Assembly: GCA_934725285.1 (NCBI GenBank)
Contig: CAKVBK010000001.1
Coordinates: forward strand, 1 to 58,841
Direction of reading: 5' to 3'
DNA length: 58,841 nucleotides
From: an uncultured Bacteroidales bacterium
GTDB taxonomy: Bacteria > Bacteroidota > Bacteroidia > Bacteroidales > UBA932
The notes under the pieces were generated by a model. It did not search any database. It was not told where the DNA came from and saw only the letters and a program-made list of their open reading frames with translations. Position numbers and translations under genes: made by a program. Below are positions 2,265-19,503 of the stretch, one piece after another. The first letter of the stretch is position 1; each line of letters opens with the position of its first letter.

Positions 2265-3059
2265 TTATTCAACTATAAAACTTTCATCAAGCACATTAAG
2301 GTATTCATCGAGGAGCAATTCATTTTGCAGTTTCAAACTATCACAAAGAGACTTGCGGACTCCGTCGTCTGTATTCACGGTCTCAATGAATCTAGTAATT
2401 GCATCCTTGATATTTTGAGGAATTATAAACTCATCGCCAACAGTAAGGCTGGCAGCTGCCATAACCACATCACGGCGATGTTTCTTGAGGTCATCATCAT
2501 TGACATGCATCCCACTCTTCTTGTCTTCTCTCAAATTAAGATATGCCAAGACTTTAAGGCAGATTAATGAATCCACAGACGCATATCTAAGGCCATTCCT
2601 TTCCTCTGTATGGCTTATGAGATAACTATAATAGTCAGGTTCCAATATAATTGCCGAAAGATATGAGGCATCGTCCAGCATTATCGCCTCTATGTGGTGC
2701 TCTTCCGGATTACTCAAACCGCTTACAGGTTTGGACAACAGTTCAATCTGTGCCGGATATTCTGGTAAACTATCATAAAAACTATACAACACATATTTCT
2801 TCCGCCCGTCGGTGTCCTTTCTTGTGGCACATTTATAGTTCCCGGCTTTGACAAAAGACCAAAAAGCATCAATAAAGTCGTTGTCCAAGTTTTCAAGGAC
2901 AAGAACCATATCTATGTCTTTCGTCTTGCGTGGAGTGTATCTCCCTTCAGACAATGTTGCACGGCAGGCTGCACCTCCGATTATAATAAACGAATCCTTA
3001 TACTTTGAAAAGGTCTTCTCAAATATGCCAATTCCATCAACAATCACTTTTTCTGCCAT
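2265..3059 (-). CDS. AbiEii-like nucleotidyltransferase (putative toxin)
   Basis: A 264-residue protein with an N-terminal nucleotidyltransferase core: a GGAACRATL glycine motif near residue 28 and the metal-binding DxD in TKDIDMVLVL near residue 47, preceded by a short basic stretch. This is the layout of AbiEii/MNT-type nucleotidyltransferases. The C-terminal half is helical and unrecognised. It overlaps the upstream winged-helix gene (3044-4015) by 16 nt, the usual antitoxin-then-toxin order of AbiE-type (type IV) toxin-antitoxin systems. In that family the nucleotidyltransferase blocks growth by modifying RNA. The pairing is inferred from order and fold. Confidence 0.6.
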   Translation of the reverse strand: MAEKVIVDGIGIFEKTFSKYKDSFIIIGGAACRATLSEGRYTPRKTKDIDMVLVLENLDNDFIDAFWSFVKAGNYKCATRKDTDGRKKYVLYSFYDSLPEYPAQIELLSKPVSGLSNPEEHHIEAIMLDDASYLSAIILEPDYYSYLISHTEERNGLRYASVDSLICLKVLAYLNLREDKKSGMHVNDDDLKKHRRDVVMAAASLTVGDEFIIPQNIKDAITRFIETVNTDDGVRKSLCDSLKLQNELLLDEYLNVLDESFIVE

Positions 3060-4015
3060 ACCTCATCAAGCATTATTTTGTTTTCTTTATCGACTCTAGG
3101 ATCAGTATCACCTTCCAGACTAAGGAATAGAGATAGCCTGTCAATAACATCAGATTCTGTGTCCATTTCAGGATAACGCCATATTTCTATTTTCACATTC
3201 CCGTCAAAGTCATTCAGCCCATTGAAATCCGTCTCCTTGAAGCTTCCGGAATAAACTGCAATTGTCGGCACTTCATCCGGAGAAATCATAGTGTATGACG
3301 CCAATGCGCTGACCCCGGAATACTGGAATCCTACGGAAGGAACGGCATCGCAATATTTGACTTCCTTGACTGGAGTCGTCATATACGGCTTCGCCTTCTC
3401 CCACAACTCACGACCGCCAGCAATGAATCTTATCCTTTTGCTCCGATCAGAGTCTTTTCTGCATTCGCACAAGCCGAGAGCTTCAATGTTCTCAACCGCC
3501 TTGGCAATGCTGACATAGGAATACCCACAAATTTGCGAGGCCATTTCAGAGACAGAGAGCCCGTCAAGACTCATTTTCTGAAGATGATACAGCAAAAGGA
3601 ACTGTGCTGACGCTGACAGCTTGGAAGGATTCTTTGCCTTTTCCTTCCTGGAGTGCAGAATCACGTTGGGCAGAAAAACCTCTCCGCGCCCAGTGATGAA
3701 GAATACGCTTTTCTCAATGTATCGCTGCCTCTCATAAAACTTCAGATTGGAAAAATAATATACAATCGGTACAGAGAGAACAGAAGCCAATCTGCCAGAT
3801 ATCCTCGAACAGCTTGCAGGCGTCTCATTGATACCCAATTTCGACACAAGAAGCACGAATGTAGTCCCCGCAAATTCTGCCCTATAGAAAGAGAACCTGA
3901 CGATGTCATCAGCAATGGCGCCCTTCAGTTCTTTCTTGGGAATCTCTGACAAAGGGATAACAAATCCGGCTATCGATATGCTATTAATTTGCACTATTAT
4001 AATATATTTATACAA
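3044..4015 (-). CDS. Winged-helix protein, putative antitoxin/regulator
   Basis: A protein of up to 323 residues with a central MarR-like winged helix (about residues 130-200: SAQFLLLYHLQKM, then SVSEMASQICGYSYVSIAKAVENIEALGL, then a basic wing KRIRFIAGG). The flanking regions are unassigned. The same domain order, N-terminal module, central wHTH and C-terminal module, is seen in the AbiEi-like protein at 36492-37472. A -7-like box (TATTTTTG on the minus strand, 4021-4028) lies so close to the ATG at 4015 that an in-frame GTG at 3994 may be the real start. It is probably the autoregulating antitoxin of the overlapping nucleotidyltransferase. Confidence 0.55.
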   Translation of the reverse strand: MYKYIIIVQINSISIAGFVIPLSEIPKKELKGAIADDIVRFSFYRAEFAGTTFVLLVSKLGINETPASCSRISGRLASVLSVPIVYYFSNLKFYERQRYIEKSVFFITGRGEVFLPNVILHSRKEKAKNPSKLSASAQFLLLYHLQKMSLDGLSVSEMASQICGYSYVSIAKAVENIEALGLCECRKDSDRSKRIRFIAGGRELWEKAKPYMTTPVKEVKYCDAVPSVGFQYSGVSALASYTMISPDEVPTIAVYSGSFKETDFNGLNDFDGNVKIEIWRYPEMDTESDVIDRLSLFLSLEGDTDPRVDKENKIMLDEVWQKK

Positions 4016-4668: not shown

Positions 4669-6093
4669 TCAATCCTCATCAGGGTTTATGTCAAACGGAA
4701 GAAGTGGAGCATCAGAGCCACTGACGGATTCTTCATTGAACTTGTCAAAGTCGGAGACGAAAGTACGATCCTGTATTACTTTGAACTTTTCATATTCGCC
4801 GTAAGCCTTTTCTCTGGCCTCATCCTGCGAGACCGTACCGGCAGACTCCGTAGTTTTGTAGTCATTCATTGTCAGGAACTGTTCCAGACGCTGTCTCCAG
4901 TCATCCATTGTTGTGATGATATGCCTACGCGCACGAGATTCAGCAAAATCAAGGAAGGATGTCGTTATCGAATTGAGCTCGGAGATTTCTTTCTCAGACA
5001 GATAGTTCTTCGCCACAATGGAGTCCGACCGTTGAACACGGCCGCCCGGTGCATTCTTCCATGTGGTAAGTCCCATGTTTGGTCTCTCAGCATCAGCCCT
5101 CTGATATACGATTTCAGCGGCTGTGTGATGCGTGACAGCAATATGCATCATATTCTGCACCATCTTGAAAAACAGCTTTGTGCTTTCCGATTTTGCATCA
5201 TAATCAGAGCTGCATTCAGCATAGATGTCAGTAATCTTTTGATAATACCGTCTTTTGGAAGTTCTGATTTCTCTGATGCGTTCAAGCAAGTCATCAAAGT
5301 AGTCCTTGCCGAAATGACGTCCCTGCTTCAAACGTTCATCATCCAAAACGTAGCCTTTGACGAGAAACTCTTTCAAGACAGATGTCGCCCATATCCTGAA
5401 CTGCGTGGCCTGATAGCTGTTGACCCGGTAACCCACTGCTATTATTGCATCAAGATTGTAGAATAAAGGTGAGCGTTCCACATTGCGTTCTCCTTCAGTT
5501 TGAACTATCCCGATTTTTCGGATAGTTGCCCCCTCTGACAGCTCACCGCTTTCGAATATCTGTTTCAGATGATAGTTGACGGTCCTGACATCCACTCCGA
5601 AAAGTTCCGCCATCCGCTTCTGTGACATCCAAAACGTGTCCCCATTGAAGATAACCTCAATGCGGGCTTCCCCCTGCGCAGTTTTATAGAACAATATATT
5701 GGAATCTACTGAATTACGAATCAGTTCTCCTGTCGTGACAGTATTCGAGAAGAACTGCCTTGCATGGAGCACCATAGGCTTTTTCCCATCCGCATTCTCG
5801 GCTATGATCAGGCACGCCAGCCTGGATAGATGGAAAGTATCCACCTTTCTGAAAGCCCCGCTGCCTAGCCTGACCATATCAACCGACTGGTTGAAATGGT
5901 CACCAATTTTCATTCCCTTATCATTGGCCACAGCAATGGCCTTATCAATCACCGCCCTGAATTTCCAATATCCGGAATACCCTAGTGCATCAGAAAATTC
6001 TCTGGAACTCCAGTATTCACTTCCGTCAGCACTCTGGTGACGTATTCCGTCAAATACAGATTGAAGTTCCTGTATATTGCTTTGTAGTCCCAT
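4669..6093 (-). CDS. DinD-like/RhuM fusion protein
   Basis: A 474-residue protein that joins two families. Residues 1-115 resemble the DNA-damage-inducible DinD/BRO N-terminal module (EYWSSREFSDALGYSGYWKF, then GDHFNQSV and VDTFHLSRLACLIIAENAD). From about residue 140 it is a RhuM-type protein with a helix-turn-helix (TFWMSQKRMAELFGVDVRTV), the NLDAIIAVGYRVNS block and the long helical tail. RhuM proteins are common in restriction and defence loci of Bacteroidales but have no established activity. No partner gene overlaps it; it ends about 35 nt before the start of the zinc-ribbon gene. Confidence 0.75.
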   Translation of the reverse strand: MGLQSNIQELQSVFDGIRHQSADGSEYWSSREFSDALGYSGYWKFRAVIDKAIAVANDKGMKIGDHFNQSVDMVRLGSGAFRKVDTFHLSRLACLIIAENADGKKPMVLHARQFFSNTVTTGELIRNSVDSNILFYKTAQGEARIEVIFNGDTFWMSQKRMAELFGVDVRTVNYHLKQIFESGELSEGATIRKIGIVQTEGERNVERSPLFYNLDAIIAVGYRVNSYQATQFRIWATSVLKEFLVKGYVLDDERLKQGRHFGKDYFDDLLERIREIRTSKRRYYQKITDIYAECSSDYDAKSESTKLFFKMVQNMMHIAVTHHTAAEIVYQRADAERPNMGLTTWKNAPGGRVQRSDSIVAKNYLSEKEISELNSITTSFLDFAESRARRHIITTMDDWRQRLEQFLTMNDYKTTESAGTVSQDEAREKAYGEYEKFKVIQDRTFVSDFDKFNEESVSGSDAPLLPFDINPDED

Positions 6094-6244: not shown

Positions 6245-6469
6245 TTATCTTGCCTTCCCTGTGAGAAGTTCATTCTTCAAAAAATCATAGACATAACGCG
6301 GACTCTGATAGTATAACCCCGCCTTGTCATCAATGAGCCGCTGATAAGTCTCGGAATTTATTACAATGTCAAGGGCTTCTGTCATGGAAGATGCCTTCCC
6401 GTCGTCTATGAGCAACATGGCGAGTTTGGCCACCATATCGTTCTTCATCATCTGTTTCTCGTCTATCAT
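6245..6469 (-). CDS. DUF3791-like small protein
   Basis: A 74-residue protein with a helical N-terminus (MVAKLAMLLIDDGKASSMTEALDIVINS) and a conserved-looking tail GLYYQSPRYVYDFLKNE. It fits the small DUF3791-like partners that flank DUF3990 genes. Its ATG overlaps the stop of the DUF3990 frame by 4 nt. DUF3791/DUF3990 cassettes are thought to act like toxin-antitoxin modules, so this would be one of two candidate immunity or regulator proteins here. Confidence 0.6.
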   Translation of the reverse strand: MIDEKQMMKNDMVAKLAMLLIDDGKASSMTEALDIVINSETYQRLIDDKAGLYYQSPRYVYDFLKNELLTGKAR

Positions 6470-6945
6470 CGTCTTACTCTTTTAAGTATTGCCACGGCTT
6501 TTTCGGTGCCGAAGAAATACTGCACTGTCAGCCCTTTCATATATTTCAGCTTGCTAACAAGCGTCGGCATGTCTATGAGCTGGTTCTCGTATTTCCATAG
6601 CTGCACGCCTACACGGTCGTTGGCTATAGGCCCTATCACTATGTCATAGTCGTGGACTGGTGCTCCGGTTGAATTGTTGCGGTTGGCGAGGATAAACTCG
6701 GCCCATTGCTCGCTGTAATCATCGAATACAATCGTATGCAAACCTTTCATGTCCCCTTCTTCCACCTCAAACTCCATAACTATCGGCTCACCGTTCTGCT
6801 GTTGCTCGGTCTTTATCTTTGCCATATTGAGTGCCTGTTCATAGTCTGGCGACAAATAAAACCCTTAACCGAAGTCTTTGTTGGGTTTCGACTTACGCAG
6901 GTCTATCTTGTCGAAAGCTACATTGGTCCCGTGATACAATTTCAT
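6466..6945 (-). pseudogene. DUF3990 gene interrupted by an in-frame stop
   Basis: Read from the ATG at 6945 the frame starts MKLYHGTNVAFDKIDLRKSK, which is the conserved N-terminus of DUF3990, an ADP-ribosyltransferase-like family. Codon 27 is TAA (complement of 6865-6867), exactly where family members have lysine or another residue before GFYLS. The frame then continues open for 132 more codons with normal DUF3990 sequence (PVHDYDIVIGPIANDRVG, then KGLTVQYFFGTEKA). A TTG at 6855 could restart translation but would lose the YHGT substrate-binding motif. The start is one base after the stop of the upstream DUF3791 gene. Confidence 0.8.
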
Positions 6946-6946
6946 G

Positions 6947-7165
6947 CTATTCCTCTCCCAATTTATGACAATACTGCGTGAGATCGTCCACTGCCGACGC
7001 GAACGACTGTGTATGCAAATAGTCATAGTGCTGTTCCACGAAGCCGATGCCTTTATAACGTAACAGGTAGTTGAATGCCTGCTTGAGCGTCAATCCGTGC
7101 CGCTTCCCGAATTCAGTGAGGAATATCACCGTCCATTCTATCTTGTCCTTAGTGTTGTATTCCAT
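6947..7165 (-). CDS. DUF3791 protein
   Basis: A 72-residue protein matching DUF3791: an N-terminal helix KIEWTVIFLTEFGKRHGLT, the central LKQAFNYLLRYKGIGFVEQHYDYLHTQS and a C-terminal helix. It is the first gene of a three-gene cassette DUF3791, DUF3990, DUF3791-like, with spacings of 1 nt and then a 4-nt overlap. In this family arrangement the small protein is the likely antitoxin or chaperone of the DUF3990 enzyme. Confidence 0.75.
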   Translation of the reverse strand: MEYNTKDKIEWTVIFLTEFGKRHGLTLKQAFNYLLRYKGIGFVEQHYDYLHTQSFASAVDDLTQYCHKLGEE

Positions 7166-7379
7166 ATTTCCTTTCCTCTTTTCTTATAACATTTACGAAT
7201 CATTTTATTTCCGAGATCACATCATAAATCTCCTGCATCAGTTTGTCGCGTCATACATACCACTTTTCTCGATTATGACAATGACCCGAACAAGAATCGC
7301 ATCGATAATCGATAATATATGACCGGCAAACATAACAACATAGTCTCGTAGTCCTGATACTGTTTCAAAAAGCTCCCTC

Positions 7380-8888
7380 TTATAGGCATATTTGAGATTC
7401 AGATGTAATAAGGACTAGCTTCTTTCTGGCTCGTGAAATGGCCACATAGAAATTCTTTGCGTCTGTAAATTTATGCGCCTCATAAAGCACTACGGTATCA
7501 AATTCCAAACCTTTAGTCAAGAGAGTTGTCCCTATGCATCTTCCTTCGATTTTTCGTCCCATGTGCCGAATGTTATTCTTTAAGTGAGTCATAGCTTCAT
7601 ACATTGGAATGTCTTCACTTTCCGCAATATTAGAGGCACGTTTAATTTCGCGATACAACTCTTTGAAATGACATTTGTTACTAATCAAAGAATAAAAGTT
7701 ATCAAATATCTTCATTAGATTTGGCAAATTAGGATTTTCCTCAAAAGAAGAGAATAGGGATTGTAACTTCTCTCCTTTTGACTTACACTCTTGATCTCTC
7801 TTTCGCTTAATTCGATTATTGCCCCTGTCAATCCAATCATTCATAGCAGTTGCTCCGAAGTGCATGGCCTTCATTATATCATATAAGGCTTTTATCTTTT
7901 GTATTTTACGTTTATCTTGGCATGCATTTATGAATTCATCAATTTTTTTAGAACAAGAATAAAATTTATCTGAATCAATTGCGTCAAGCATATGAAAGTT
8001 ATAGCCATAATCAATTGCTATTTTCAAATCAATTCTATCCTTTATACTTCCTCTTGGTTGAATTTGTCCATCTTTGCGAGTCTCATTGTATGACGGATAA
8101 ATAATCAAGAAACTGTCTGACATGTTATTCTTTATCGCAGTCCTTAATAGACTCAAGAAAGAACTGTCGTGCAAGTCTGCCGGTATAATATGATGAATAA
8201 CTGTTAACCCTGTACAATTAATTGAGTCTAATTGTATAGGTTTATGCGTTTCCAAACATTTACGCATTGACAATATTTGATTTCCAAGCGCCTCATTTAT
8301 TCCATGCCATCTCCATGGGTCAGACAAGAGATCAAATTTTTCAAACTGGGCAAGGTCTCTTTCAAAATCCACAAGAGGCGTTTTCTCAAAGGAGAATATA
8401 CCTTGAAGTGGGTCACCAAGCACATGCAACGGCAAGTTCTTTGCCAAAGTAAGTATCATCTTATGCTGATCAGTGGTGCAATCTTGATACTCATCCACAA
8501 AGATTCCATCATAAGAAGCCTTTATAATCAGTTGGACAACAGCGTAATCTATCAACTGAGTACAATACTGAATTATAGTTGAAAAATATGTTTTTTCTTC
8601 AACTGACGGCAAATCTCTATTTTCTTTAAATGAAAGTACATACCGTTGCGCGAAACCAGTTATCGTATCTAATTGATACTTTTTTTGAGGTATGTTCTTT
8701 TCTTTGAACTTAGCACGCAATGATGCTATTCCAGCATGAGTATGAGTAAGAATTAAATAGCGCGACTCTTCTGGGCATTGCATTATACAATCAGCAATAG
8801 CCGTTGTCTTGCCGTGTCCTGCAGGGGCCGTTAATAGACCCCGTTGGCATTTCAAATATGATGTCCAATCAACCTTATTCAAAACCAC
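7380..8888 (-). CDS. gajB: UvrD-like helicase, GajB-type
   Basis: A 502-residue superfamily 1 helicase-like ATPase. Visible motifs are Walker A APAGHGKTT (residues 21-29), motif Ia ILTHTHAG, motif II DEYQD near residue 131, motif III GDPLQGIF, and the C-terminal TLLTKGLEFDTVVL and FYVAISRARKKLVL blocks of UvrD/Rep helicases. Its length and its 14-nt overlap with an upstream OLD-type nuclease gene match GajB of Gabija, where GajB senses nucleotides or DNA ends and works with the GajA nuclease during phage infection. It is the last gene of the seven-gene operon. Base composition is AT-rich compared with the mod/res part of the operon. Confidence 0.78.
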   Translation of the reverse strand: MVLNKVDWTSYLKCQRGLLTAPAGHGKTTAIADCIMQCPEESRYLILTHTHAGIASLRAKFKEKNIPQKKYQLDTITGFAQRYVLSFKENRDLPSVEEKTYFSTIIQYCTQLIDYAVVQLIIKASYDGIFVDEYQDCTTDQHKMILTLAKNLPLHVLGDPLQGIFSFEKTPLVDFERDLAQFEKFDLLSDPWRWHGINEALGNQILSMRKCLETHKPIQLDSINCTGLTVIHHIIPADLHDSSFLSLLRTAIKNNMSDSFLIIYPSYNETRKDGQIQPRGSIKDRIDLKIAIDYGYNFHMLDAIDSDKFYSCSKKIDEFINACQDKRKIQKIKALYDIMKAMHFGATAMNDWIDRGNNRIKRKRDQECKSKGEKLQSLFSSFEENPNLPNLMKIFDNFYSLISNKCHFKELYREIKRASNIAESEDIPMYEAMTHLKNNIRHMGRKIEGRCIGTTLLTKGLEFDTVVLYEAHKFTDAKNFYVAISRARKKLVLITSESQICL

Positions 8889-10557
8889 ACCATTTTGTTA
8901 ATTCAATGATATTCTTCTTCAGATTGTTGTCATTAGGAATGTTGCTCATGTCATTAAATACAATATTTCCTAAGAACTCTCCACCAGGGATATGTTTGAA
9001 CCATTCATGCTTTTTCTTTGTTGCTTCTCGAATAATTTCTTCACGAATAGTCTGTTTTTCTTCCTCTGAATTCGCATTGCTAATTCGTCCCATCATATCG
9101 TCTGACAATTCTATATTATGGTTTGGAAATCCATTTTCATTACATTTTGTCAAAGAGATAAATTCATTCCAAGAGACAGACATTATTATTTCCTTTTCAA
9201 GGCAATTCCCTTCGCCACATAAAAATAATGGAATAGAAACGTCTCTTGCTGCATTAATCTTAACGGAAAGTTCTTTAGTTACATCATTATCGGCAAAAAC
9301 ACATACATCATATCCCATTCTTTTGAGTTCAATGGCGTAAGTGTATATTTTATCTCCTCCACCAGCATTCACTATAACTACTCCTTTTGTCGAAAAGTTA
9401 GCCTCATTTTTAGTCTCAAGCCATGAATCCATCGCTCGAAGAAAACCACATTCAGTTTTTCCTTCACAGATTATAAGTTTCTTTCCGAAGAATGCCTGAG
9501 GGTTTGAACGGCGACAACTATCCATTGCACTATCCACACGACATAAAGAATCCATATCTTTGTTTAGTATAAAGATATTGTCTGCTTCCGCTTCGAGAAT
9601 TACATGAACAGAATGAGTCGTAATGAACATTTGTCCTTTATCTATTCTACGGAAGAGCCGAACAAGAGTCGCTATGCGATCCGGTTCAAGTCCTTGCTCT
9701 ATTTCGTCAATCAAAGCAATGCCGCCAGTCTGTGCCAGATCCATCTGAATGGCAATTGACATCAAACGTTTGCTACCTTTACCATGAAGACGAAATGGCA
9801 GTTCCATGTCTTCAGTTTTCTCATGAAGGGCTATACTATTTCCAGTATAAGGGTTTTCCTTTATGTCTATACCCGTAGAAAGTTCACCTAGAGAAAGCCC
9901 AAGTCGCTCTGATGTAGTTTTGAGTTGTTCCAAAGGTTTGTTTAATTCCTCCTTATCTTCATTATTCAATGAGGAAGACATTGTCCTTAGCATCTTGGAC
10001 TTAATTTGGTCAATCTGCTTGCTATTACTGAGTGAGGATTTTGTTAATGAGTATAATGGTGAAAGTTTATTATACGAGAACTGGTTATCAGTATAATCTG
10101 TAATGAAGTTAATTGCGAACAAAGCTCTTTCTTGAGCGGATATTACCTTATCTTCAATATCAGCACCGGATCGAGCCTTAACAACCCAACGAGGTTCTAA
10201 AGACTCGTCCACAGATAGTTTTATGCTAATTCGCAGATTGGATTCTTGGCAATCTTCATCAGTTAAATCGTTCGTTACATATAATCCAAACTTTTTTTCC
10301 GCTAATAGCTCATGCGGTATATCAGACAGCTCAGCTTCGATTTCTATAGGAGATGATGTATTTTGGTTATAGAAATCAAGATCACTAAATGTCATATTCC
10401 ACGATGGTGAAAGCACAGCATGAATAGCAGATAAGACTGTGCTTTTTCCTGAATCTCCTCTGCCGATAAGTATAATAAACTTCTCTTCTCCAAAATCTTG
10501 ACAGAGATGCTTTATTCCTCTGTAATTATTGATTATAAGTTTATTTATATGGCTCAT
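8875..10557 (-). CDS. gajA: OLD-family ATPase/TOPRIM nuclease, GajA-type
   Basis: A 560-residue OLD-family protein. The ABC-type ATPase half has Walker A GRGDSGKST (residues 32-40), the downstream block LHGKGSKRLMSIAIQMDLA and Walker B LIDEIEQGLEPD near residue 282, followed by an ITTHS H-loop. The C-terminal TOPRIM nuclease has ICEGKTE near residue 363 and VCVFADND near residue 420, giving the acidic metal-binding residues. With the overlapping UvrD-like gene downstream it forms a Gabija-like pair: GajA nicks DNA and is held inactive by nucleotides until they are depleted. Single-protein OLD nucleases are the alternative, but the partner gene argues for Gabija. Confidence 0.8.
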   Translation of the reverse strand: MSHINKLIINNYRGIKHLCQDFGEEKFIILIGRGDSGKSTVLSAIHAVLSPSWNMTFSDLDFYNQNTSSPIEIEAELSDIPHELLAEKKFGLYVTNDLTDEDCQESNLRISIKLSVDESLEPRWVVKARSGADIEDKVISAQERALFAINFITDYTDNQFSYNKLSPLYSLTKSSLSNSKQIDQIKSKMLRTMSSSLNNEDKEELNKPLEQLKTTSERLGLSLGELSTGIDIKENPYTGNSIALHEKTEDMELPFRLHGKGSKRLMSIAIQMDLAQTGGIALIDEIEQGLEPDRIATLVRLFRRIDKGQMFITTHSVHVILEAEADNIFILNKDMDSLCRVDSAMDSCRRSNPQAFFGKKLIICEGKTECGFLRAMDSWLETKNEANFSTKGVVIVNAGGGDKIYTYAIELKRMGYDVCVFADNDVTKELSVKINAARDVSIPLFLCGEGNCLEKEIIMSVSWNEFISLTKCNENGFPNHNIELSDDMMGRISNANSEEEKQTIREEIIREATKKKHEWFKHIPGGEFLGNIVFNDMSNIPNDNNLKKNIIELTKWCGFE

Positions 10558-10566
10558 TATACGACT

Positions 10567-12150
10567 TTAAATCAAATGCGTAACCTTTATCTTCTTATAG
10601 TTCTTGCCGGAAATGCCGAGCAGGGCCATAGTGTCATCCTTGATGATGAGTTCACCTTTCTGGAGTGAGGCGATTTCAGCCTTTATGTCATTGAAGTCCT
10701 TGCCTGTCACTCCGAAAATATCCTTGATAACGGAGTCATTTATGCTCTGCTGCTTCATAATGAGAGGATATTGAGCGTTGGCATAGAAATCAAAATGCTT
10801 ACTCTTGAAACTGTCCATATTCTGAGTCGCCAGGATGATGCTCAGCCCCTTGTTTCGACCGACAGCGATAAGATTCCTTAAAGGTTGATTGTCAAAGTCA
10901 AGCATATAGTGAGCCTCATCTATGATTGTGAAATGCCTGATCTGCACACACTCGTCATTTACGGCCTGCTTTTCCAACTTCTCATATATGTTGTTTAGTT
11001 TCGAGATTACGAAATAGACTATTGCTTTGGCGATGACACCATCCTTAGGGAAGCTGTCCATCTTGACAATGTAGCATCCGTTGACAAGGTCAGTCTTATC
11101 TTCCGTCTCAAACAGATTGTTACGAACGAGCTGTTTGAGGACAGAGGAAATGCTGTCATCCTTGTCCGCATTGACCATCTTGCAGCGATACTGGTTCAGC
11201 ATTTCATTGAAAGTGATAGGGCGGCCATTGGTTTTCTTGTATGCGTCCACAATGGCTTCGCTGAGGCGATTGCTCATGTTGGCGCTGATGCTCGCCTTGT
11301 CTATAGCACACAAGGCGTTCGCCATCTCCGTCGAATACAAGTTGATCTCGTTTATCGGGCGGCCGCTGAAATCCTTGAAAGGAGTGAATGGGAGAGGATT
11401 CTTTACAGGGTCAAGGATGCTTGACCGGTCAACTTCAAAGTGCTGAAGCCAATGACTGTTGGTGGGGTCAGAGAACTCACCTTTATAGTCAAACAAGAGG
11501 AAATTGACCGGATAAGGGCTTTCGACGGAAAGGCTGCGGAACTGTTCGATGATAACCGCAAGAAGGTTCGTCTTACCTGAGCCTGTCGTCCCGGCAATAA
11601 TCACCTGTGCATTGCTTACAGAACGCCCGTTTATGTTGAGTTTGGCCTCTATTCCATCACCGTATTCACCGATAACCAAATCCAAAACAGGAATGCTCGT
11701 AGATGCGCACTTCCTGTCACTTTCTGCAAACAGGAACGCATTTAAGTTGTCGTCGCTCATCAAGTACTTAAGTCCTCTGTGCATTTCAGCGGCAACAATC
11801 TTCGAGACGACCGTCATATCCTTCAAATCAAGTCCAAGATCCTTATACCTCATTTTGATGAGGGCCGAGAACAAAGGCTTCAGGTCTCTGGCCGTGAAGA
11901 AAGTCGCGACAAGACGCTGGCTGTTCTTTGAAAGGGATTCCTGCTCAATGTCTTCAACCTTCCTTTTTTCCGGAAGATTCAGCCCCACAAGAAGGCATAT
12001 CCTCATCACCTTGTTCAGCGGGAAAAGATAAGGATTGCATCCGTCAATTTGCTTTGTCAAATTGAATTTTGACTCCAACAGATTCTTCAATGGCGTTATG
12101 TCATCAATGATTCCTTCCGCCTGACGCAGGTTGTCTAATACAATATCCAT
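10567..12150 (-). CDS. HerA/FtsK-like ATPase, Dnd-system-like
   Basis: A 527-residue DNA-translocase-type ATPase with Walker A IIAGTTGSGKTNLL near residue 190, Walker B HFTIIDEAHYMLD near residue 408, and a sensor strand IILATQNMDSF. The first 170 residues precede the motor and contain NKVMRICLLVGLNLPE, faintly like the helix of the small DndE DNA-binding protein; this resemblance is tentative. In Dnd-type loci HerA-like proteins act in restriction next to DndD-like ATPases, which matches the gene directly upstream (3-nt gap). No nuclease domain is visible, so DNA cutting would rely on Res or GajA. Confidence 0.72.
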   Translation of the reverse strand: MDIVLDNLRQAEGIIDDITPLKNLLESKFNLTKQIDGCNPYLFPLNKVMRICLLVGLNLPEKRKVEDIEQESLSKNSQRLVATFFTARDLKPLFSALIKMRYKDLGLDLKDMTVVSKIVAAEMHRGLKYLMSDDNLNAFLFAESDRKCASTSIPVLDLVIGEYGDGIEAKLNINGRSVSNAQVIIAGTTGSGKTNLLAVIIEQFRSLSVESPYPVNFLLFDYKGEFSDPTNSHWLQHFEVDRSSILDPVKNPLPFTPFKDFSGRPINEINLYSTEMANALCAIDKASISANMSNRLSEAIVDAYKKTNGRPITFNEMLNQYRCKMVNADKDDSISSVLKQLVRNNLFETEDKTDLVNGCYIVKMDSFPKDGVIAKAIVYFVISKLNNIYEKLEKQAVNDECVQIRHFTIIDEAHYMLDFDNQPLRNLIAVGRNKGLSIILATQNMDSFKSKHFDFYANAQYPLIMKQQSINDSVIKDIFGVTGKDFNDIKAEIASLQKGELIIKDDTMALLGISGKNYKKIKVTHLI

Positions 12151-12153
12151 GAC

Positions 12154-14154
12154 TTAATTATCTAATTGGATTCCAAAATATCCGGATTCTACACTCGTTG
12201 ACTGCTTTTCAACATCACGTTTCAATGTATAAGACTTGGCTATGAAAGGCTCAAGCTTTATATAGTCACTGTCTTTCCGTATTTCCGATGTCGTGCAAAG
12301 CAGAATTGTCTGTTCCGCCAAGTCTGGAAAATATAGTTCCATCAATGCGTCACGGCTTTCCTCATCAAGAACGCCCATGACCGTATCAATCATGACAGGC
12401 GGGTTGTAGTCTCCGAGATTCCTGAGCACTTTAAGGAGCACCTGGATGAAGATCTGTTTGGAGGCCGCATTCAGCTGGTTCAATGAAATCTGGTTTCCGG
12501 CCTTATGATATAGCTTTATTGAGAAATGCTCCATCCTGTCTGACAGCTCAACCCTTGATATACATCCCTTATACGAGATAAGCAACTCATTGAGCTGTTC
12601 TTTCATTTCAGTCTCTATTTTCTCTTTCTTGCGTTTAAGGAGACTATCGGCAACCTCTTCAAAGAATGATTTCAACTTGACCAACGTATCATACTTGACA
12701 TCCGGTTCCTGCTGCACCTGAATGTCGTACTTGTGGATTTGTTTATCAAGTTTCGATATTTCAGAATTCAGGTCCTCGGCCTCGTGTTTCAATGATTCAA
12801 GACTCCGCTCCCTTTCCTCGTAGTCTTTTATGAGTTCAGCATTCCCACCGCTTTGCTGCCGGAGCAAAGTGTCCCGCTGCATTTCCTGATCGTGGAGCGT
12901 TGCGATGCGTGTATCTATGTCGTGCTTGAGTTCGTCCAATTGCAGGAATCTGTTGAATGCGCCGCCTGTCATCATGCGTTTGATGGCAGACAGCTCGTTG
13001 TCATCAATGTAAGAATACTTGTCAACGTTGCTTGAGGGTTGCCGGCGGTCATACAGATAATCGACAATTTCTTTCTCTTCAACATGTTCGGGACAAAGGC
13101 ACTTGCGCTTCAGGTATTCGAGAATCTTATCAGTAATATCCTTAATCTGCTCAAGCGAAAGGGCATCACTCATCCTCTTCTTCAATTCATCCTTATGCCT
13201 GATGATGTCATTGAAGTCAAGGGCCATATTGTTGAATATCTTCGGGATAAAGATATCCGTCTCTATTGAATCGACTATGCTCTTGATTTGCTCGTTATAA
13301 CTGCGTGCAGCCTTCTTTGTCTCCTCTATATTTTCAGTGAGGCTGTTGATTTTTATAGAGTTGTCCGCAATGGTTTTTGCGCCGACCTTCGCAATATCAT
13401 AGTCATCCTTGATTCCTACAAGATACTTGTAAAGCTTGTCCTGCTCCGCAACGTTCTGATCAAGTTTCTCGACCAAAGCTGCCTTATTCGCACAGAGCCC
13501 ATTATATTCCTTGGCCTCCTGCTCTGCCGCCAGTCTTCTTGCCGCCCATTCCTGCTGCAATTTTTCGGCAGCCCGCTTCATCTGGATATATTTATTGAAG
13601 CCCATGACGTTCTCAATGTTCTCACGTATCAGTTGGGAGAACACGCCTTCCTTCAAAAGGTCGCTCGATTGCATCGCATCGAACAGGAAATACTTGCTCA
13701 GTTCCTGCGGAAGATTAGCCTTTATGATCTTGTTTACCTGCTGTTCGGCGATAGTGCGCTGCGCTATTGGCATTGCAGTGCCATAGACGAATTGATTGCC
13801 GTTCATATTCAACGACACGCTTTCCACAGGCTTTTCGGCAGTGTTTAGTTTATAGCCCCTTTTCAGGATATAGGTCTGTTCCTGCCCGAGAACCTGCCCA
13901 GTGAATGTCAGTTCCAGCCATATCTCAGGTGCCTCTGTCCCGACCGCACCGTTGTTAAGAAGTTCTCTGAACTGTTCCTTTGTGGAAATCTTCAGCCCAT
14001 ACAGCGCTCCGCATATAGCCTCGAACAGGGTTGTCTTACCGCCACCGTTCATGCCGCCTATCAGGATTATCGGCCTGTACTTGGAAATGGACAAGTCCAA
14101 ATCAAGAGACAGATAGGTCTTGTAATTCCTTATTTTGATGTTCTTTATCACCAT
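12154..14154 (-). CDS. DndD-like SMC/RecN-type ATPase
   Basis: A 666-residue SMC-like ATPase. Walker A is GGMNGGGKTT (residues 33-42) after the typical IKIRNYKTY start. Residues 190-300 and 400-510 form heptad-rich coiled coils, separated near residues 345-365 by a CLCP segment that may be a zinc-hook-like hinge. The C-terminal head has a signature-like LNAASKQIFIQVLL and Walker B PPVMIDTVMGVLDE near residue 585. This is the architecture of DndD from DNA phosphorothioation systems. dndA, dndB and dndC are absent, so it probably serves a methylation-based system here, together with Mod/Res and the HerA-like ATPase. Confidence 0.75.
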   Translation of the reverse strand: MVIKNIKIRNYKTYLSLDLDLSISKYRPIILIGGMNGGGKTTLFEAICGALYGLKISTKEQFRELLNNGAVGTEAPEIWLELTFTGQVLGQEQTYILKRGYKLNTAEKPVESVSLNMNGNQFVYGTAMPIAQRTIAEQQVNKIIKANLPQELSKYFLFDAMQSSDLLKEGVFSQLIRENIENVMGFNKYIQMKRAAEKLQQEWAARRLAAEQEAKEYNGLCANKAALVEKLDQNVAEQDKLYKYLVGIKDDYDIAKVGAKTIADNSIKINSLTENIEETKKAARSYNEQIKSIVDSIETDIFIPKIFNNMALDFNDIIRHKDELKKRMSDALSLEQIKDITDKILEYLKRKCLCPEHVEEKEIVDYLYDRRQPSSNVDKYSYIDDNELSAIKRMMTGGAFNRFLQLDELKHDIDTRIATLHDQEMQRDTLLRQQSGGNAELIKDYEERERSLESLKHEAEDLNSEISKLDKQIHKYDIQVQQEPDVKYDTLVKLKSFFEEVADSLLKRKKEKIETEMKEQLNELLISYKGCISRVELSDRMEHFSIKLYHKAGNQISLNQLNAASKQIFIQVLLKVLRNLGDYNPPVMIDTVMGVLDEESRDALMELYFPDLAEQTILLCTTSEIRKDSDYIKLEPFIAKSYTLKRDVEKQSTSVESGYFGIQLDN

Positions 14155-14167
14155 ACCTGTGCCCTCC

Positions 14168-14383
14168 CTATTTCAAATGCTGAATCGCCTCGTTTATAAT
14201 TATCTCCGTGTCGGAATCGCTCATTTCTATTCTGTCAACCTTCGCGGCATGATACTTCCTTAAGATTTCCTCGCTCAGCCAGTCAAAATCAATTTCATGA
14301 GCGAGGCACAAACTCTTTATCAGAGTAAGATCCTCTTCCCTGATTCCGTAATGAAGGAACTTATGGTCTAAACCTTGTGCCAT
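14168..14383 (-). CDS. Small acidic protein between res and dndD-like gene
   Basis: A 71-residue, acidic, probably all-helical protein (LIKSLCLAHEIDFDWLSEEI, then SDSDTEIIINEAIQHLK). I cannot assign a function. It lies 12 nt after res and 13 nt before the DndD-like gene, so it is clearly part of the operon. A small adaptor, a regulator of the neighbouring ATPase or a structural subunit are all possible. Confidence 0.7.
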   Translation of the reverse strand: MAQGLDHKFLHYGIREEDLTLIKSLCLAHEIDFDWLSEEILRKYHAAKVDRIEMSDSDTEIIINEAIQHLK

Positions 14384-14395
14384 AACAATGTGGTA

Positions 14396-16738
14396 TTACT
14401 GTTTATATTGCTCCGGATAGAAGCAATCCCATCCGGAGAGGTCGTCAGTGTTGGAGATAGGAAGCGGTGAATATTTCCAGTTCTCGTGGTCATAAATCAA
14501 AACACCACCCTTGAGCCCAAGCCCAGCGTTCTCGTCATTCCGCATATATTCCAAAAGGGCGTTATGCTTGTTGGGAGCGTTCTCATCGCTGTTCTGGGAT
14601 TTCGTGTCAAACAGGAATATCTGCCCGTTTTTCATGCGTATGACATAATCCACATAGAAAAGAGACTGCTCGCCACGGACATTCTTGTAAGGGACGGCAT
14701 AATTCATTATTCCGCTGTCTCCGTTCTTGTACCACCAGTCGATATATTGTGTGTTCTGTTCCAGAAACTCCGAGAAGTTCACTTCCTGATATGAGGCATT
14801 ACGTGAAGCGATGAAAGGCATCAAGGCATGATTTTTCTTAGTGTCATCCACGTAGTTTACCTGTTCGTTATAGACTCTCTCTTCCGGGACCTCCCATTCA
14901 TAGGAAATCAAATCCCTCTCGGAAGCCTTTCGACGCATATTCATCGTCTGCTTATATGCGTTCAGAGCTGCGTGAATGACCTCCACGAATTTCGGCCTAT
15001 TGCCATGGTACAGTACAATCTTCTTGACATCCGTCTCAAACACATCGAAAAGAGACTCCATAGCTTCCTCGATTGCGTTCTCCAACACAGCAAGGCTCTG
15101 GTGCTTTTCCCACTCAGTCAGCTGCTTAAGACAGAAATCATCAAACACTCGCTTGAGCTCGGACTCCGTACGTGCAAACTTCACTTTGCTGCCCACCTCG
15201 ATAACGCCAAGTTCGTTCAGTATGGGCAAGTCTTTCGGAATGTCTATCGAAATACTTTTGACATCGAAATTGATATACTTCGATGCGGCAACTCTATTGT
15301 CCGGAGCCTTGTTGTCAAGGGAGAATGGTTCCGGCGAGTCGTCATCACCGAACAGATCAAAAAGAGAAGGCTCATAGACCTTGGTCCAGCTTCTGGCCAT
15401 CTGTTCCTTCAGAACTGTCTTGAAACCGGTACCGAGACGCATACGGTCGGTGCCTTTCCTCTCAACATATACTGACTGCAGCTTGACATTATTGAGGTTG
15501 GGTCTCCTTTTGGCCGAGAGTTTGGAGATGTAATCCAGGTCGTCCTTCACAATCTGAATCTTGTCCTTGCTCAAGTCAGTATAGACATATCCCATATTGA
15601 GCGCATCCTTGGAGTAGTACTTCTGCTCAGGCATACGAAGGATTCTCCCTATGGTCTGCATCGTGAATGTGAAACTGTCCAACTTTCTGAATATAAGAAG
15701 GACAGCCGCGCGTGGGCAATCCCACCCCAGGGCAATAGCCTGTTTGAATAACAGCACCTCGGTAAGGTTGTCCGGAGCCTCAAGATTATCAAGGTTTTCC
15801 TTTTCATTGGAAAGCCAAACCGCCAGCTTACCGTTTTCCGTCGTGATGTCATGCATCGCACGAAGATATTCTATCACCTCTTCCTTGATGGTGTTGTCCT
15901 CGGCAGTGTTGGCCTCGCTTGAGTCATTCGGCAACTGGATGAGCAGCAGAGGGTTTATGCCTGCTCCCAATTCTTTGTACGCTGCAGCAAGCTCATTCCG
16001 CTTGTTCAAGGCTTCTTTTATAAGCCATTGATTAGCTGTAAGCCCGTCGGAACGCGCAATATCGATGGCCGGATTCAGGACTATGCCATTTTTAATCATC
16101 TCCTCGGCGATGACATCCTCACGCAACACGTTCACCATTTCGTCGCCGGTAGTGATAGGAGTCGCAGAAATACGGATCTCCAGTTTCGGATTGATGTTCT
16201 GAAGTACTTTCTCGCACTTCTTGGCGTTCTTCGTCCCGAACATATGCTCCTCGTCAATCACGACCACAATCTGGATGTGGTTGTCTTCCTGAGTCCTCCT
16301 CGTGATGTCGTATAGAGAAGCCGAGTTCTCGGTCTCACGAATCATCACGGCATTGTCCTTGTTGATGCTCTCCCAGTTCACAAACAGAATCTCTCCGTGC
16401 CGTATGTAACTCTCGTTGGAGTGATCAAGTTCATCATAGATGAGGGGCTGAAGGATGCGGGTCTCGGTGAAGAAGTTCTTCATCTTGAAATAACTCTGTT
16501 CGTGAAGTTTATTCGGAGCTATCCAGATGAGAGCCACCTTGTCATAATTGCAGTCAGTCCGTTCCGGCAGCTCGCTGACCAGACGGCCGAGCATCTCGGA
16601 AGCCATCACTGTCTTTCCGGAACCCGTGGGCGCCTTGAACACGAGTTTCTTTCTCTGCCCGGAACTGTTGAGCAGTTTTATTGTTTTGGAGACAAGTTCG
16701 TTTACCGCAGTCTCCTGATATTTAACTTGCTTAAGCAT
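14396..16738 (-). CDS. res: Type III-like restriction subunit (Res), helicase-nuclease
   Basis: A 780-residue superfamily 2 helicase with Walker A APTGSGKT (residues 36-43), motif Ia WIAPNKLHEQ, a DEEH box near residue 158, motif III SATPIT near residue 188 and motif VI TIGRILR near residue 372. Near the C-terminus VDYVIRMKNGQ-IFLFDTKSQ (about residues 692-712) fits a PD-(D/E)XK endonuclease core of the D...DxK type. Together with the DNA methyltransferase 2 nt upstream it forms a type III-like restriction-modification pair in which Res translocates or diffuses along DNA and cuts unmodified sites. It is somewhat shorter than classical Res subunits (about 900-1000 residues). Confidence 0.85.
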   Translation of the reverse strand: MLKQVKYQETAVNELVSKTIKLLNSSGQRKKLVFKAPTGSGKTVMASEMLGRLVSELPERTDCNYDKVALIWIAPNKLHEQSYFKMKNFFTETRILQPLIYDELDHSNESYIRHGEILFVNWESINKDNAVMIRETENSASLYDITRRTQEDNHIQIVVVIDEEHMFGTKNAKKCEKVLQNINPKLEIRISATPITTGDEMVNVLREDVIAEEMIKNGIVLNPAIDIARSDGLTANQWLIKEALNKRNELAAAYKELGAGINPLLLIQLPNDSSEANTAEDNTIKEEVIEYLRAMHDITTENGKLAVWLSNEKENLDNLEAPDNLTEVLLFKQAIALGWDCPRAAVLLIFRKLDSFTFTMQTIGRILRMPEQKYYSKDALNMGYVYTDLSKDKIQIVKDDLDYISKLSAKRRPNLNNVKLQSVYVERKGTDRMRLGTGFKTVLKEQMARSWTKVYEPSLFDLFGDDDSPEPFSLDNKAPDNRVAASKYINFDVKSISIDIPKDLPILNELGVIEVGSKVKFARTESELKRVFDDFCLKQLTEWEKHQSLAVLENAIEEAMESLFDVFETDVKKIVLYHGNRPKFVEVIHAALNAYKQTMNMRRKASERDLISYEWEVPEERVYNEQVNYVDDTKKNHALMPFIASRNASYQEVNFSEFLEQNTQYIDWWYKNGDSGIMNYAVPYKNVRGEQSLFYVDYVIRMKNGQIFLFDTKSQNSDENAPNKHNALLEYMRNDENAGLGLKGGVLIYDHENWKYSPLPISNTDDLSGWDCFYPEQYKQ

Positions 16739-16740
16739 AA

Positions 16741-18588
16741 CTATTCCTCCCCGAAAATCAGATTCAACTCACTCTCTCCGTCTTCACTCAATTCCGGTGA
16801 TGTCCCGTCACCGACAGTGCCATCCAGGAACTTTGTCTTTCTCTTAGGCAGGACTTTCTGATAGGCATTGTATATCGCTGCCGGAAGGGCGCATAATTCG
16901 ACCTTGTCCAGAACATCCACGAACTCATCATCATAGGCATAATTGCCCGGAGCGAAGACATAGATAAGAATCTTGCCGTCCACATTCATCTTTGAAATTT
17001 CATCGGCAAATGCCGGAACCGCCAATTCGTTGTAGATAACAAGCATACGTCTGTTATTATCCTCAAAGTACCTTGACACAGAAGCCTTGAGTTTGAGGCT
17101 TCCGAAAGTCTTGACTTCCCGGTAGATGTCCTCCTTGATGCAGAGCATGTCGGTCGCCGCATATACCAACTGGCGCATATTCCTGCTTGTGCGGTCTCGT
17201 CCGATGAAGTCTGTCTTATAGTAGCGGAGCGTGTTGGCCGTCAAGCCCGGTACGCCTTCTCCTTTTGGAGTCGTGTAACCATTGATTATGCGCTTGTTGC
17301 GCTCGTATGTCACCTCCTCGCAGATATGATTTTCGTTGTTGGTGACAAGGATGCACTTACGGTGTCCTCCGTCCTCGGCGTTTAGTTTCATTGTAGCGTG
17401 GAGGGTCGTGCCACTGCCGGCGAAGAAGTCGAGAAGGGTGATCGGTTTTGATGGAATTGAAACCAACTTGAGAAGATTCGAAATGAGTAATGTTGGTTTT
17501 GGAGATGTAAAGACCTTATCTCCGTCAAATAGGGCTTGTAGTTCTTTCGACCCATGAGTCGCTGTCCCATATTGTTCTGCCTCAAACCAAGTGTGAGCAA
17601 TAGAACCAAACTCAACCTGCTCATTTAAGAAAACTTTCAATTGAGGTCTTGATGTGCCATTTTTACCAAACAAGATACGATTGTCTGCTAAGGCACTGGC
17701 GAATTTCTCCTGAGAAATTCGCCAGTGCCTCCCTCTTGGAGGGAGGTGCTGGATCCCTGTTGCAGGATTCGTTATAGGATATGTCAAATTAGGCCTTACA
17801 TGAGGCGCATCCATCGGGTCTGCCTTCCAAGGACCTCTTGGATCATTATCTGGATTCGAGTACTTATCACTATCAACATCAATAGGATAAAAAACAAAGC
17901 CGCCCTGCTCATACCAAATCGAAGCATTGGATTTTTTTAACCGTCTATTGCTTTGCCGCCTACTTTTTGCTACTGCTAAAATGTATTCATGATTAATGCT
18001 TAAGTCAGTATCATTTTGCAGAGATTGACGTGAATGCCATGGTATTGAAGAAATATAGTTTGCAACCCCAAAAATCTCATCACACAACAGCTTCAATTGC
18101 GCCTGTTCATTATCATCAATTGAAATGAAAATAACTCCTTTATCTGACAGCAATTGTTTGGCAATCTTCAGTCGCTTATTCATGAACGACAGCCATTTGC
18201 TATGTCTGAACGAATCCTCCGAATCCACAAAGGAGTCGTTATAGACAAAATCCTTGTTTCCTGTATTGTACGGCGGATCGATGTAGATGACATCTATCTT
18301 CCCGGCGTGGGTGTATGAAAGCGCAGTCAGTGCCTCCAGATTATCGCCCTCGATGAGGATATGATTAGGGGCATCTGGATCATCACTGATGATTGCGCGT
18401 TCCTTGACCTCAGTCAGAACCGGAAGTTCCTCCCTCAGCCGTTCCTCGACTTCCTCCGGCTTGTCCTCCCAGACGAGCCCGTATTTCTTATGAGTCTTGA
18501 GAAGTTCTATGAGAGCCGACTTCTCGTCATTGCTCAAGCCTTCAATTTGATGAATCTTACCTATCAGTTCTTGTTTATTTATACTCAT
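16741..18588 (-). CDS. mod: Type III-like N6-adenine DNA methyltransferase (Mod)
   Basis: A 615-residue methyltransferase of the beta class: the catalytic DPPYNTG motif near residue 103 precedes the SAM-binding LLDFFAGSGTT motif near residue 385, and the target-recognition region lies between them. The conserved GRHWRISQEKF stretch is present. I start it at the ATG at 18588 (MSINKQELIGK); an upstream ATG at 18651 would add 21 cysteine/tryptophan-containing residues unlike the family. The recognition region (roughly 17440-18200) is visibly more AT-rich than the flanks, as expected if it was exchanged by recombination. A 40-bp palindrome lies in the coding sequence at 17691-17730. Confidence 0.87.
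   Translation of the reverse strand: MSINKQELIGKIHQIEGLSNDEKSALIELLKTHKKYGLVWEDKPEEVEERLREELPVLTEVKERAIISDDPDAPNHILIEGDNLEALTALSYTHAGKIDVIYIDPPYNTGNKDFVYNDSFVDSEDSFRHSKWLSFMNKRLKIAKQLLSDKGVIFISIDDNEQAQLKLLCDEIFGVANYISSIPWHSRQSLQNDTDLSINHEYILAVAKSRRQSNRRLKKSNASIWYEQGGFVFYPIDVDSDKYSNPDNDPRGPWKADPMDAPHVRPNLTYPITNPATGIQHLPPRGRHWRISQEKFASALADNRILFGKNGTSRPQLKVFLNEQVEFGSIAHTWFEAEQYGTATHGSKELQALFDGDKVFTSPKPTLLISNLLKLVSIPSKPITLLDFFAGSGTTLHATMKLNAEDGGHRKCILVTNNENHICEEVTYERNKRIINGYTTPKGEGVPGLTANTLRYYKTDFIGRDRTSRNMRQLVYAATDMLCIKEDIYREVKTFGSLKLKASVSRYFEDNNRRMLVIYNELAVPAFADEISKMNVDGKILIYVFAPGNYAYDDEFVDVLDKVELCALPAAIYNAYQKVLPKRKTKFLDGTVGDGTSPELSEDGESELNLIFGEE
17691..17730. repeat. 40-bp near-perfect palindrome inside mod
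   Basis: Positions 17691-17709 and 17712-17730 are perfect inverted repeats of 19 bp separated by only 2 nt. A second inverted repeat with 8-bp arms (17728-17735 and 17739-17746) follows directly. The DNA encodes the conserved HWRISQEKFASAL stretch of Mod, so the structure coexists with a conserved protein motif. On the mod transcript it would form a very stable hairpin. Confidence 0.9.
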
Positions 18589-18690
18589 CGCCAAATTCTT
18601 ATATGGTTTTAACCAGCAGGATGCACACACAATATCGCCATGATGCCGCATCTGAAATCAATCTGAAAAAGGTGTCCTTGCTATATCATA

Positions 18691-18698
18691 CAAATATA
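18691..18698 (-). promoter_or_regulatory. Putative promoter -7 box of the defence operon
   Basis: On the minus strand this reads TATATTTG, matching the Bacteroidota -7 consensus TAnnTTTG. It lies about 100 nt upstream of the mod start, and the intergenic region is shared with the divergent fimbrial operon. No second promoter-sized gap exists among the seven genes downstream. Confidence 0.5.
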
Positions 18699-18861
18699 GC
18701 AAATAACCACGTCTATTCAAACAAAAGTCTATGAAAATGAAAAACTTGTCAAGCAAATGTGTACACAGTCAGACGGCTTGACCAAGTCGTGAAGAAGGGA
18801 ATAAGGAATAAAAATTCCGTAATATAGTATTCTTTTTATATTGTATATGTATTATATTTAT

Positions 18862-18869
18862 TATCTTTG
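18862..18869 (+). promoter_or_regulatory. Putative promoter -7 box of the fimbrial operon
   Basis: TATCTTTG matches the Bacteroidota -7 consensus. A TTG at 18841-18843 gives a -33 element at suitable spacing (about 19 nt). The first start codon of the operon is at 18898, giving a leader of about 20 nt. Confidence 0.6.
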
Positions 18870-18897
18870 TCACGAATTTCAAAAGCAAGAATAAAAT

Positions 18898-19503
18898 ATG
18901 GCAATCAGAAGAAGCATTCTAATAATTGCCCTCGCACCGGTCCTTTGGACCGCGATGCAAACCGAAGCTTCCGCCCAACGTACCGCCGAAGGAAGCATGT
19001 TCATAGGCGCGTCCCAGATGGTGTCCGCCTATGCGGTGCCTTCGGGAGGGCTGGAGCTTGGGGCCGGCGGCTATCTACGTTCATCCATGTGGAAGGCCGG
19101 GGTGAGGGCAGTGGACTGGAACCACAAGGTGTCGGCCGACACCGGGGTGGAACACGATGACCTGTTCGACCACATAGCGTGGTCGCTCTACGGGGGATGG
19201 CGCTACCGCCTCATGGGGACCTACAACCGGATGTTCAGCCTTTACCTCGGCGGGGACATCTTCCTGGGTCTGAACCAATACGAGGCTTTCCGGAAACTAC
19301 CTGACGAACTAGCCACCGGCATCGCCAGGTGCGGGTTCATCTACGGTGTCCAGCCGGAGCTGGAGCTGGAGGTGTTCCCGGGCCGTCGCGTGGCTCTCGT
19401 TCTCGGAGTACAACTTCCGGTCACGCTCGGCTCATCACTCAAGACAGACATCTGGAACATCACGGGCTCTGTAGGGGCCCGCATCAACCTCGTGACGAAA
19501 TGA
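18898..19503 (+). CDS. TraO-like outer-membrane beta-barrel protein
   Basis: A 201-residue exported protein: a signal peptide with cleavage after ASA near residue 27, then alternating beta strands rich in glycine and aromatic residues and ending in a barrel-like GSVGARINLV strand. The segment with FIYGVQPELELEVFPGRRVAL and TLGSSLKTDIWN resembles TraO, an outer-membrane-associated protein of Bacteroidales conjugation systems. traO normally follows traN, but the tra operon at 44-52 kb has no traO there. This gene leads a fimbrial operon, with an ATGA overlap to the next gene. A generic fimbria-associated barrel is the alternative. Confidence 0.55.
   Translation: MAIRRSILIIALAPVLWTAMQTEASAQRTAEGSMFIGASQMVSAYAVPSGGLELGAGGYLRSSMWKAGVRAVDWNHKVSADTGVEHDDLFDHIAWSLYGGWRYRLMGTYNRMFSLYLGGDIFLGLNQYEAFRKLPDELATGIARCGFIYGVQPELELEVFPGRRVALVLGVQLPVTLGSSLKTDIWNITGSVGARINLVTK

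Follow-up and report, generated by a model that had tools for sequence, protein, structure and literature searches.

A conserved methylation-paired Dnd/Pbe-like gene core and a Gabija-like pair: probably two defence systems joined in one operon of an uncultured Bacteroidales bacterium

Do seven tightly packed defence genes constitute one system, or have separate systems been brought together? This question is raised by an operon at positions 7380–18588 of a 58,841-nucleotide stretch of DNA (the whole of which is termed the window in the following) from an uncultured Bacteroidales bacterium of the UBA932 lineage (contig CAKVBK010000001.1, assembly GCA_934725285.1). A preliminary description made from the DNA letters had proposed a single layered system of seven genes and, as its alternative, two systems merely joined. 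Our analysis favours the latter: most likely, a methylation-paired relative of the Dnd and Pbe systems, made up of five genes, shares one probable transcript with a separately acquired Gabija-like pair. The main interest of the locus lies in the five conserved core genes and in the interchangeable genes around them. The genes are, with protein lengths in amino acids (aa):

16741..18588, minus strand: mod, type III-like adenine DNA methyltransferase, 615 aa (the longest open reading frame, ORF, starts at 18651)
14396..16738, minus strand: res, superfamily 2 (SF2) helicase with a C-terminal PD-(D/E)XK-like nuclease motif, 780 aa
14168..14383, minus strand: sp, helical small protein of the Sp-DndD family (PbeB-like), 71 residues
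12154..14154, minus strand: dndD-like gene, ABC (Rad50/SbcC-type) ATPase of the DndD/PbeC group, 666 aa
10567..12150, minus strand: herA, probable DndE domain plus DndH-type HerA/FtsK motor, 527 aa
8875..10557, minus strand: gajA-like gene, OLD-type ABC ATPase plus TOPRIM nuclease, 560 aa
7380..8888, minus strand: gajB-like gene, UvrD-type helicase with a GTG start, 502 aa

From mod to gajB the spacings are 2, 12, 13, 3, 9 and −14 nucleotides (nt), and all seven ORFs lie on the minus strand. The ORFs, their strand and the gaps agree exactly with the preliminary description, whose operon layout also holds and whose gene names are matched by the families found for Mod, Res, DndD, HerA, GajA and GajB.

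A profile of 24 DndD sequences, that of the window included, was scanned over a genome collection and yielded 117 loci with a relative; all counts of core loci given here refer to the best 80 of these 117. The exact order mod-res-sp-dndD-herA is present in 61 of the 80 related loci (Bacteroidota/Ignavibacteria), which is far beyond chance, and gajAB accompanies the core in none of the 80, 62 of which are readable past herA. Weak gajA-like matches, each without gajB, were seen in three loci: in L054 (453 aa at 22%) the match lies upstream of mod on the opposite strand, in L064 (83 aa) it also lies upstream of mod, and L061 has a match of 75 aa. The composition of the operon changes at the same junction: the GC content at third codon positions (GC3) drops from 0.567 in the core to 0.312 in gajAB (z 14), and the best-fitting single break in GC content across the operon lies at 10606, where herA has 39 nt left to run and gajA starts 49 nt further on. 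Since gajAB is missing from all 80 loci, codon composition changes at the junction and the pair stands without the core in five of five other loci, the unity of all seven genes is not supported, and a single seven-gene system was rejected. The preliminary description had itself named rare adjacency of gajAB to the other five genes as evidence against such unity; thus, its names and layout stand, its single system does not, and its alternative of two joined systems is the version supported by the data.

The pair itself is recognizable as a distant branch of Gabija, with an OLD-ABC/TOPRIM protein adjoining a UvrD-type helicase and overlapping genes, as known for GajAB. GajA matched the PADLOC model of GajA (3.9e-134) and PF20469 (3.4e-9), and its Walker A, Walker B, CEG-TE and DxD motifs are kept in six loci. 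GajB matched its PADLOC counterpart (4.2e-114) and the solved GajB 8jqb (E 2.9e-7), but a search with GajA returned no PDB chain of that name, nor did a profile search. This GajA subfamily is rare, with matches at E <1e-30 in 1/395 class, 1/399 family and 3/393 order members, samples which may overlap. In all five other GajA loci found, gajA adjoins gajB, and no core gene was detected in the 14–35 kb around each of them (E 1e-3). The pair looks stand-alone in G247 and G997, its setting in G1076 is ambiguous, and in G733 and G895 it lies behind genes for an SNF2 helicase and an Eco57I-type methylase, for which the best PADLOC models are DpdE and DrmMI (G733) or HKD+Snf2 and type IIG (G895). The methylase-side genes and gajAB are separated by 14 nt in G895; in G733, a gene of 334 aa that matched no family intervenes, with a gap of 122 nt to that gene. 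A RhuM gene is located directly behind gajB in G733 (L144:6279-7289).

The core, which occurs in gut and environmental Bacteroidota and in two Ignavibacteria loci, is not equally constant in all its parts. Among the 19 loci without the exact order, 16 end at a contig edge, and three (L037, L076 and L079, with 0.6, 5.3 and 2.0 kb upstream of sp, respectively) keep sp-dndD-herA with other genes upstream. As these three loci retain sp-dndD-herA behind unrelated genes, mod-res is not an obligatory partner; together with the tally of contig-cut loci, they identify sp-dndD-herA as the most constant part and mod-res as its usual partner. The three loci concern the link of mod-res to the other core genes and leave the separateness of gajAB untouched. 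The genes preceding sp in L076 (L076:973-5125, e.g., one of 469 aa) and L079 (L079:324-1766, e.g., one of 365 aa) possibly represent a further partner module. Co-variation of pairwise distances, computed over 43 complete core sets including the window, is strongest for dndD and herA (r 0.93), followed by sp and dndD (0.87), res and dndD (0.80) and the catalytic part of Mod and dndD (0.63). For the Mod recognition region versus dndD, r is 0.02, and this region therefore turns over independently of the putative scanning core. Genes on the plus strand are inserted within the core in 12 loci. Seven of the nine insert loci scanned (all except L039, L040 and L064) gave a family match, namely DUF1016/YhcG nuclease (L009), RhuM (L013, L018 and L055, each between mod and res), Schlafen AlbA (L056), Abi_2 (L066) and AAA_15 ATPase (L077), and two (L038, L042) gave none.

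What kind of system does this core represent? The small protein, left unnamed in the preliminary description, matches PF20306 Sp-DndD (1.2e-6, 29.0 bits versus a cut-off of 27.2), the family of the small protein PbeB associated with Pbe/CxC systems; an alignment of 38 sequences has 10 invariant positions, and its AlphaFold2 model displays four helices with a mean predicted local distance difference test score of 71. The ATPase encoded next to it matches the PADLOC models DndD (1.9e-62) and PbeC (6.4e-56) as well as TIGR03185 DndD (6.8e-52), the latter with 176.8 bits and hence below the cut-off of 245.85. The protein of the window contains the motif KCLCPE, but both cysteines are present in just 3/77 aligned proteins and the second one in 44/77, so that the zinc-hook cysteine pair of CxC systems does not characterize this family. 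The HerA-like protein matches DndH-type HerA (5.3e-30), and its motor of the DndH-type HerA/FtsK kind spans residues 154–527. For residues of about 43–141, similarity to a seven-protein DndE profile (P 85%, E 5.9e-6) suggests that "HerA" is probably a DndE domain fused to a DndH-type HerA motor; a PDB sequence search with the N-terminus gave no credible match, and a fold search with the full-length HerA model aligned residues 153–527 only.

The two upstream genes have the features expected of a type III restriction-modification (R-M) pair of the EcoP15I kind, i.e., a Mod with a DPPY motif and a variable recognition domain, adjoined by a Res with an SF2 helicase and a PD-(D/E)XK motif. Mod matches PF01555 (5e-33) and PADLOC MTase_III (3.6e-103), with 6k0w Mod and EcoP15I Mod (4zcf) as solved relatives. 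In 49 Mod sequences, that of the window included, the DPPY motif is conserved and the recognition region variable, with a mean column conservation of 8–43% per 20-residue block for residues 181–380 versus 68–89% in blocks 81–180 and 381–460. Res matches PF04851 (1.1e-16) and PADLOC REase_III (1.4e-16). Its nuclease is assigned at the level of the sequence motif, which reads D697 ... D711-T-K713 in the window, and D(x13)D(T/P)K is present in 63/63 aligned Res proteins. From type III R-M systems the locus differs by three additional conserved genes and by a Res without PDB match at E 0.01. In L057 (1960-5559, with the second mod split over two ORFs), L062 (3638-7471) and L077 (1702-5550), tandem mod genes precede res, an arrangement that suggests a reserve of DNA specificities.

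Among described systems, PbeABCD and the CxC ATPase-DndE loci resemble the core by their Res-like helicase subunit, small protein, ABC ATPase of the DndD/CxC group and, if the assignment in the core is right, DndE component in the same order (PMC6459918; PMC10853773), and both sources place methylase genes near such loci. Xiong et al. (PMC6459918) raised the possibility of Pbe modules pairing with methylation and found candidate base-modifying genes in the vicinity of 155/320 solitary PbeAC pairs, and Rakesh et al. (PMC10853773) described cytosine methylases in CxC systems. In contrast to PbeA, which combines HKD/PLD with an SF2 helicase and lacks a PD-(D/E)XK nuclease according to the 2019 study (PMC6459918), Res here keeps a PD-(D/E)XK-like motif; no PLD match was found at E 0.1, nor was a PbeA model among its PADLOC matches. 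Further differences are the probable fusion of DndE to HerA and the type III Mod at the head of the operon. The order sp-ABC ATPase-(DndE)HerA is shared with Dnd loci featuring a DndE-HerA/FtsK fusion, such as clade-3 HerA (PMC10853773) or plasmid pM0123d of Mesorhizobium amorphae (L142), where a DndE match (PADLOC 9.2e-6) is found in the protein with the FtsK domain. There, however, the genes follow dnd phosphorothioation genes, the place of which is taken by mod-res in the window, and identity between the two HerA proteins is as low as 19%. None of the seven genes is a dndC or dndA sulfur-transfer gene, and none was seen among the ten flanking ORFs scanned in the rest of the window. The excerpts of PMC6459918 and PMC10853773 contain no description of a type III Mod/Res with DndE-HerA, and the five-gene combination was not found in the literature searched, though the ABC ATPase survey behind PMC10853773 may contain it. 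PADLOC (2023) assigns the core proteins to different systems and has no model dedicated to their combination.

In the mechanism we envisage, Mod would mark self DNA with methyladenine at sites set by its exchangeable recognition domain, and the DndD-like ABC ATPase might, jointly with the probable DndE-HerA fusion, scan and pump DNA and judge the mark. The small protein could serve as adaptor or brake, linking or restraining the complex, and Res, by its SF2 motor and PD-(D/E)XK-like nuclease, may cut unmarked DNA; as Pbe does not cleave viral DNA (PMC6459918), such cleavage should therefore not be assumed here. GajAB could contribute an independent nuclease/helicase response, probably as a second layer. 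The core would in this way couple type III-like methylation to a DndD/DndE-HerA scanning machinery, and this coupling therefore bears on the published proposal that base methylation is an alternative partner to phosphorothioation.

How are the two halves held together? Promoters of Bacteroidota follow the consensus TTTG-N17..23-TAnnTTTG, and a single element of this form lies upstream of mod:

18691..18721, minus strand: probable operon promoter, TTTG, a 19-nt spacer and TATATTTG, with the first base of the −7 element at 18698

It is the only consensus match on the coding strand within 7380–19000 (0.10 expected by chance), and none was found before gajA; the strict pattern is insensitive, since only 4/52 relatives match it upstream of mod (0.3 expected). 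None of 29 genes closely following herA in the relatives is preceded by a match. Because no consensus promoter precedes gajA, transcriptional joining is still plausible, and all seven genes are probably carried by one transcript. A sigma-70-type scan of 6800–19000 was uninformative (32 matches versus 24.6 expected). The inverted repeat TTGCTATAT-N7-ATATAGCAA at 18678–18702 overlaps the −7 element of the operon promoter and is a possible repressor operator.

The best reading of the position of gajAB is that of a variable 3' operon site, taken by other genes elsewhere. In the 62 readable loci, herA and the next gene share a strand in 48 cases, 29 of them with a gap of at most 60 nt. Directly behind herA, L046 carries ZorA/B/C (L046:13617-17449), and the corresponding genes of L048 (13617-17419) are 82–95% identical. 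First or second genes after herA comprise GmrSD-N/HEC-05-like (L015), PDC-M62A/B (L071), KAP-type PDC-S20 (L026), Fic proteins (L008, PADLOC PDC-S72, with L009 97% identical; L070), a PbeA/type IV-like SF2 helicase (L013 and L055, 87% identical), a UvrD-like helicase (L051) and an ADP-ribosylglycohydrolase (L032). These genes and the inserts within the core resemble defence genes embedded in R-M, Hma and BREX loci (PMC11411939; PMC12255303; PMC12839542; Payne et al., 2024, preprint, via citation). Similarly, TgvAB in a type I operon (PMC11411939), DarTG in type I (PMC12255303) and OLD-ABC/TOPRIM modules in BREX loci, described there as backup effectors (PMC12839542), are cases of an autonomous effector in or beside a modification operon. 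For embedded or backup effectors together with this five-gene core, no report was found in the literature searched.

Several observations weaken the picture of a methylation-paired core to which a Gabija-like system was attached. Closer metagenomic relatives exist, with a dndD 78–90% and a gajA 88–97% identical to those of the window, and a close lineage always carrying gajAB behind the core is possible. Tight neighbours on the same strand occur behind herA in 29/62 and upstream of mod in 16/53 loci (Fisher p 0.086), so that the 3' excess is not significant and the 3' position not proven to be special. Of 25 first genes after herA in a Pfam scan (L009, L022, L048 and L060 left out), nine lacked a match, and two, CrcB (L029) and adenylate kinase (L080), resemble housekeeping genes. 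The upstream genes in L037, L076 and L079 have no similarity to Mod, Res, DndC, PbeA or methylases (E 1e-3). Finally, the DndE assignment of the HerA N-terminus depends on a single profile comparison, and this region shows no similarity (E 0.26) to four proteins at PbeD/DndE positions, the alignment of which is poor (19–24% identity to the first row).

With these points in mind, the alternative that survives best is that chance placed gajAB behind herA, in a defence island of a conjugative element, and that the pair is transcribed by read-through with no functional link. The right-hand neighbour of mod is divergent (18898, plus strand) and TraO-like (PF10626, 3.8e-7), and three measured right-flank genes have a GC content of 59–60% versus 42–48% for the first five operon genes; because of this neighbour and the GC difference, the window points to a Bacteroidota conjugative element. 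A low-GC stretch beside a conjugation gene, the varied neighbours after herA, several without evident defence role, and the non-significant 3' excess would all suit a chance landing. Against it, gajAB lies behind methylase genes in 3/6 loci (window counted), and other complete defence systems are also attached behind the core; altogether, a chance landing is a possible but not the favoured explanation.

A more far-reaching idea, which we regard as doubtful, treats the site behind herA as a guard slot, in which the core takes up autonomous systems that are triggered once a phage blocks restriction, e.g., by a DNA-mimic protein. The anti-restriction protein Ocr activates Gabija, PARIS and type II Zorya (PMC12255303), and Gabija here and Zorya in L046/L048 would then be parallel occupants; the Zorya of L046 has a ZorC-like gene and therefore looks like type I, which weakens the parallel. 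If true, the core would serve as a platform for methylation and scanning, its recognition domain exchanged independently and its fail-safe modules interchangeable. In any case, the interchangeable genes behind herA offer natural combinations for testing whether docked systems guard a restriction core.

To return to the core as a methylation-paired Dnd/Pbe relative, it could instead be a plain type III R-M system with sp-dndD-herA as a separate neighbour. By itself, mod-res would make a complete type III pair, Mod co-varies with dndD and herA less than these do with each other, and three loci have sp-dndD-herA with mod-res undetected; nevertheless, the five-gene order in 61/80 loci, the gaps of 2–13 nt in the window and the res-dndD correlation of 0.80 render this separation improbable. 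That all seven genes form one integrated system with GajA/GajB as dedicated effector of the methylation and scanning core is most unlikely, as the overlapping or nearly touching genes and the one consensus promoter at the 5' end with none before gajA are outweighed by the lack of gajAB in all core loci, the sharp compositional break, the occurrence of gajAB elsewhere without the core, and a core that already owns a likely nuclease, Res.

Some further features concern the mobility and the surroundings of the operon. No plasmid DNA match was found for the operon DNA, and no viral-contig relatives were confirmed for dndD and gajA; plasmid protein matches (27 records for dndD, 308 for gajA, 7 for herA) are all below 60% identity. 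Downstream of gajB, a RhuM-family gene (4669-6093) and a DUF3990 gene (6466-6855) follow on the same strand. At 1499-4015, three overlapping leftward genes encode a calcineurin-like phosphoesterase and two proteins (264 and 323 aa) that matched no Pfam family; the three may form a further multi-gene system not yet characterised. Additional low-GC patches (about 42–50%) at 34000-38000 and 52000-58000 lie within a backbone of 54–64% GC and are likely other cargo.

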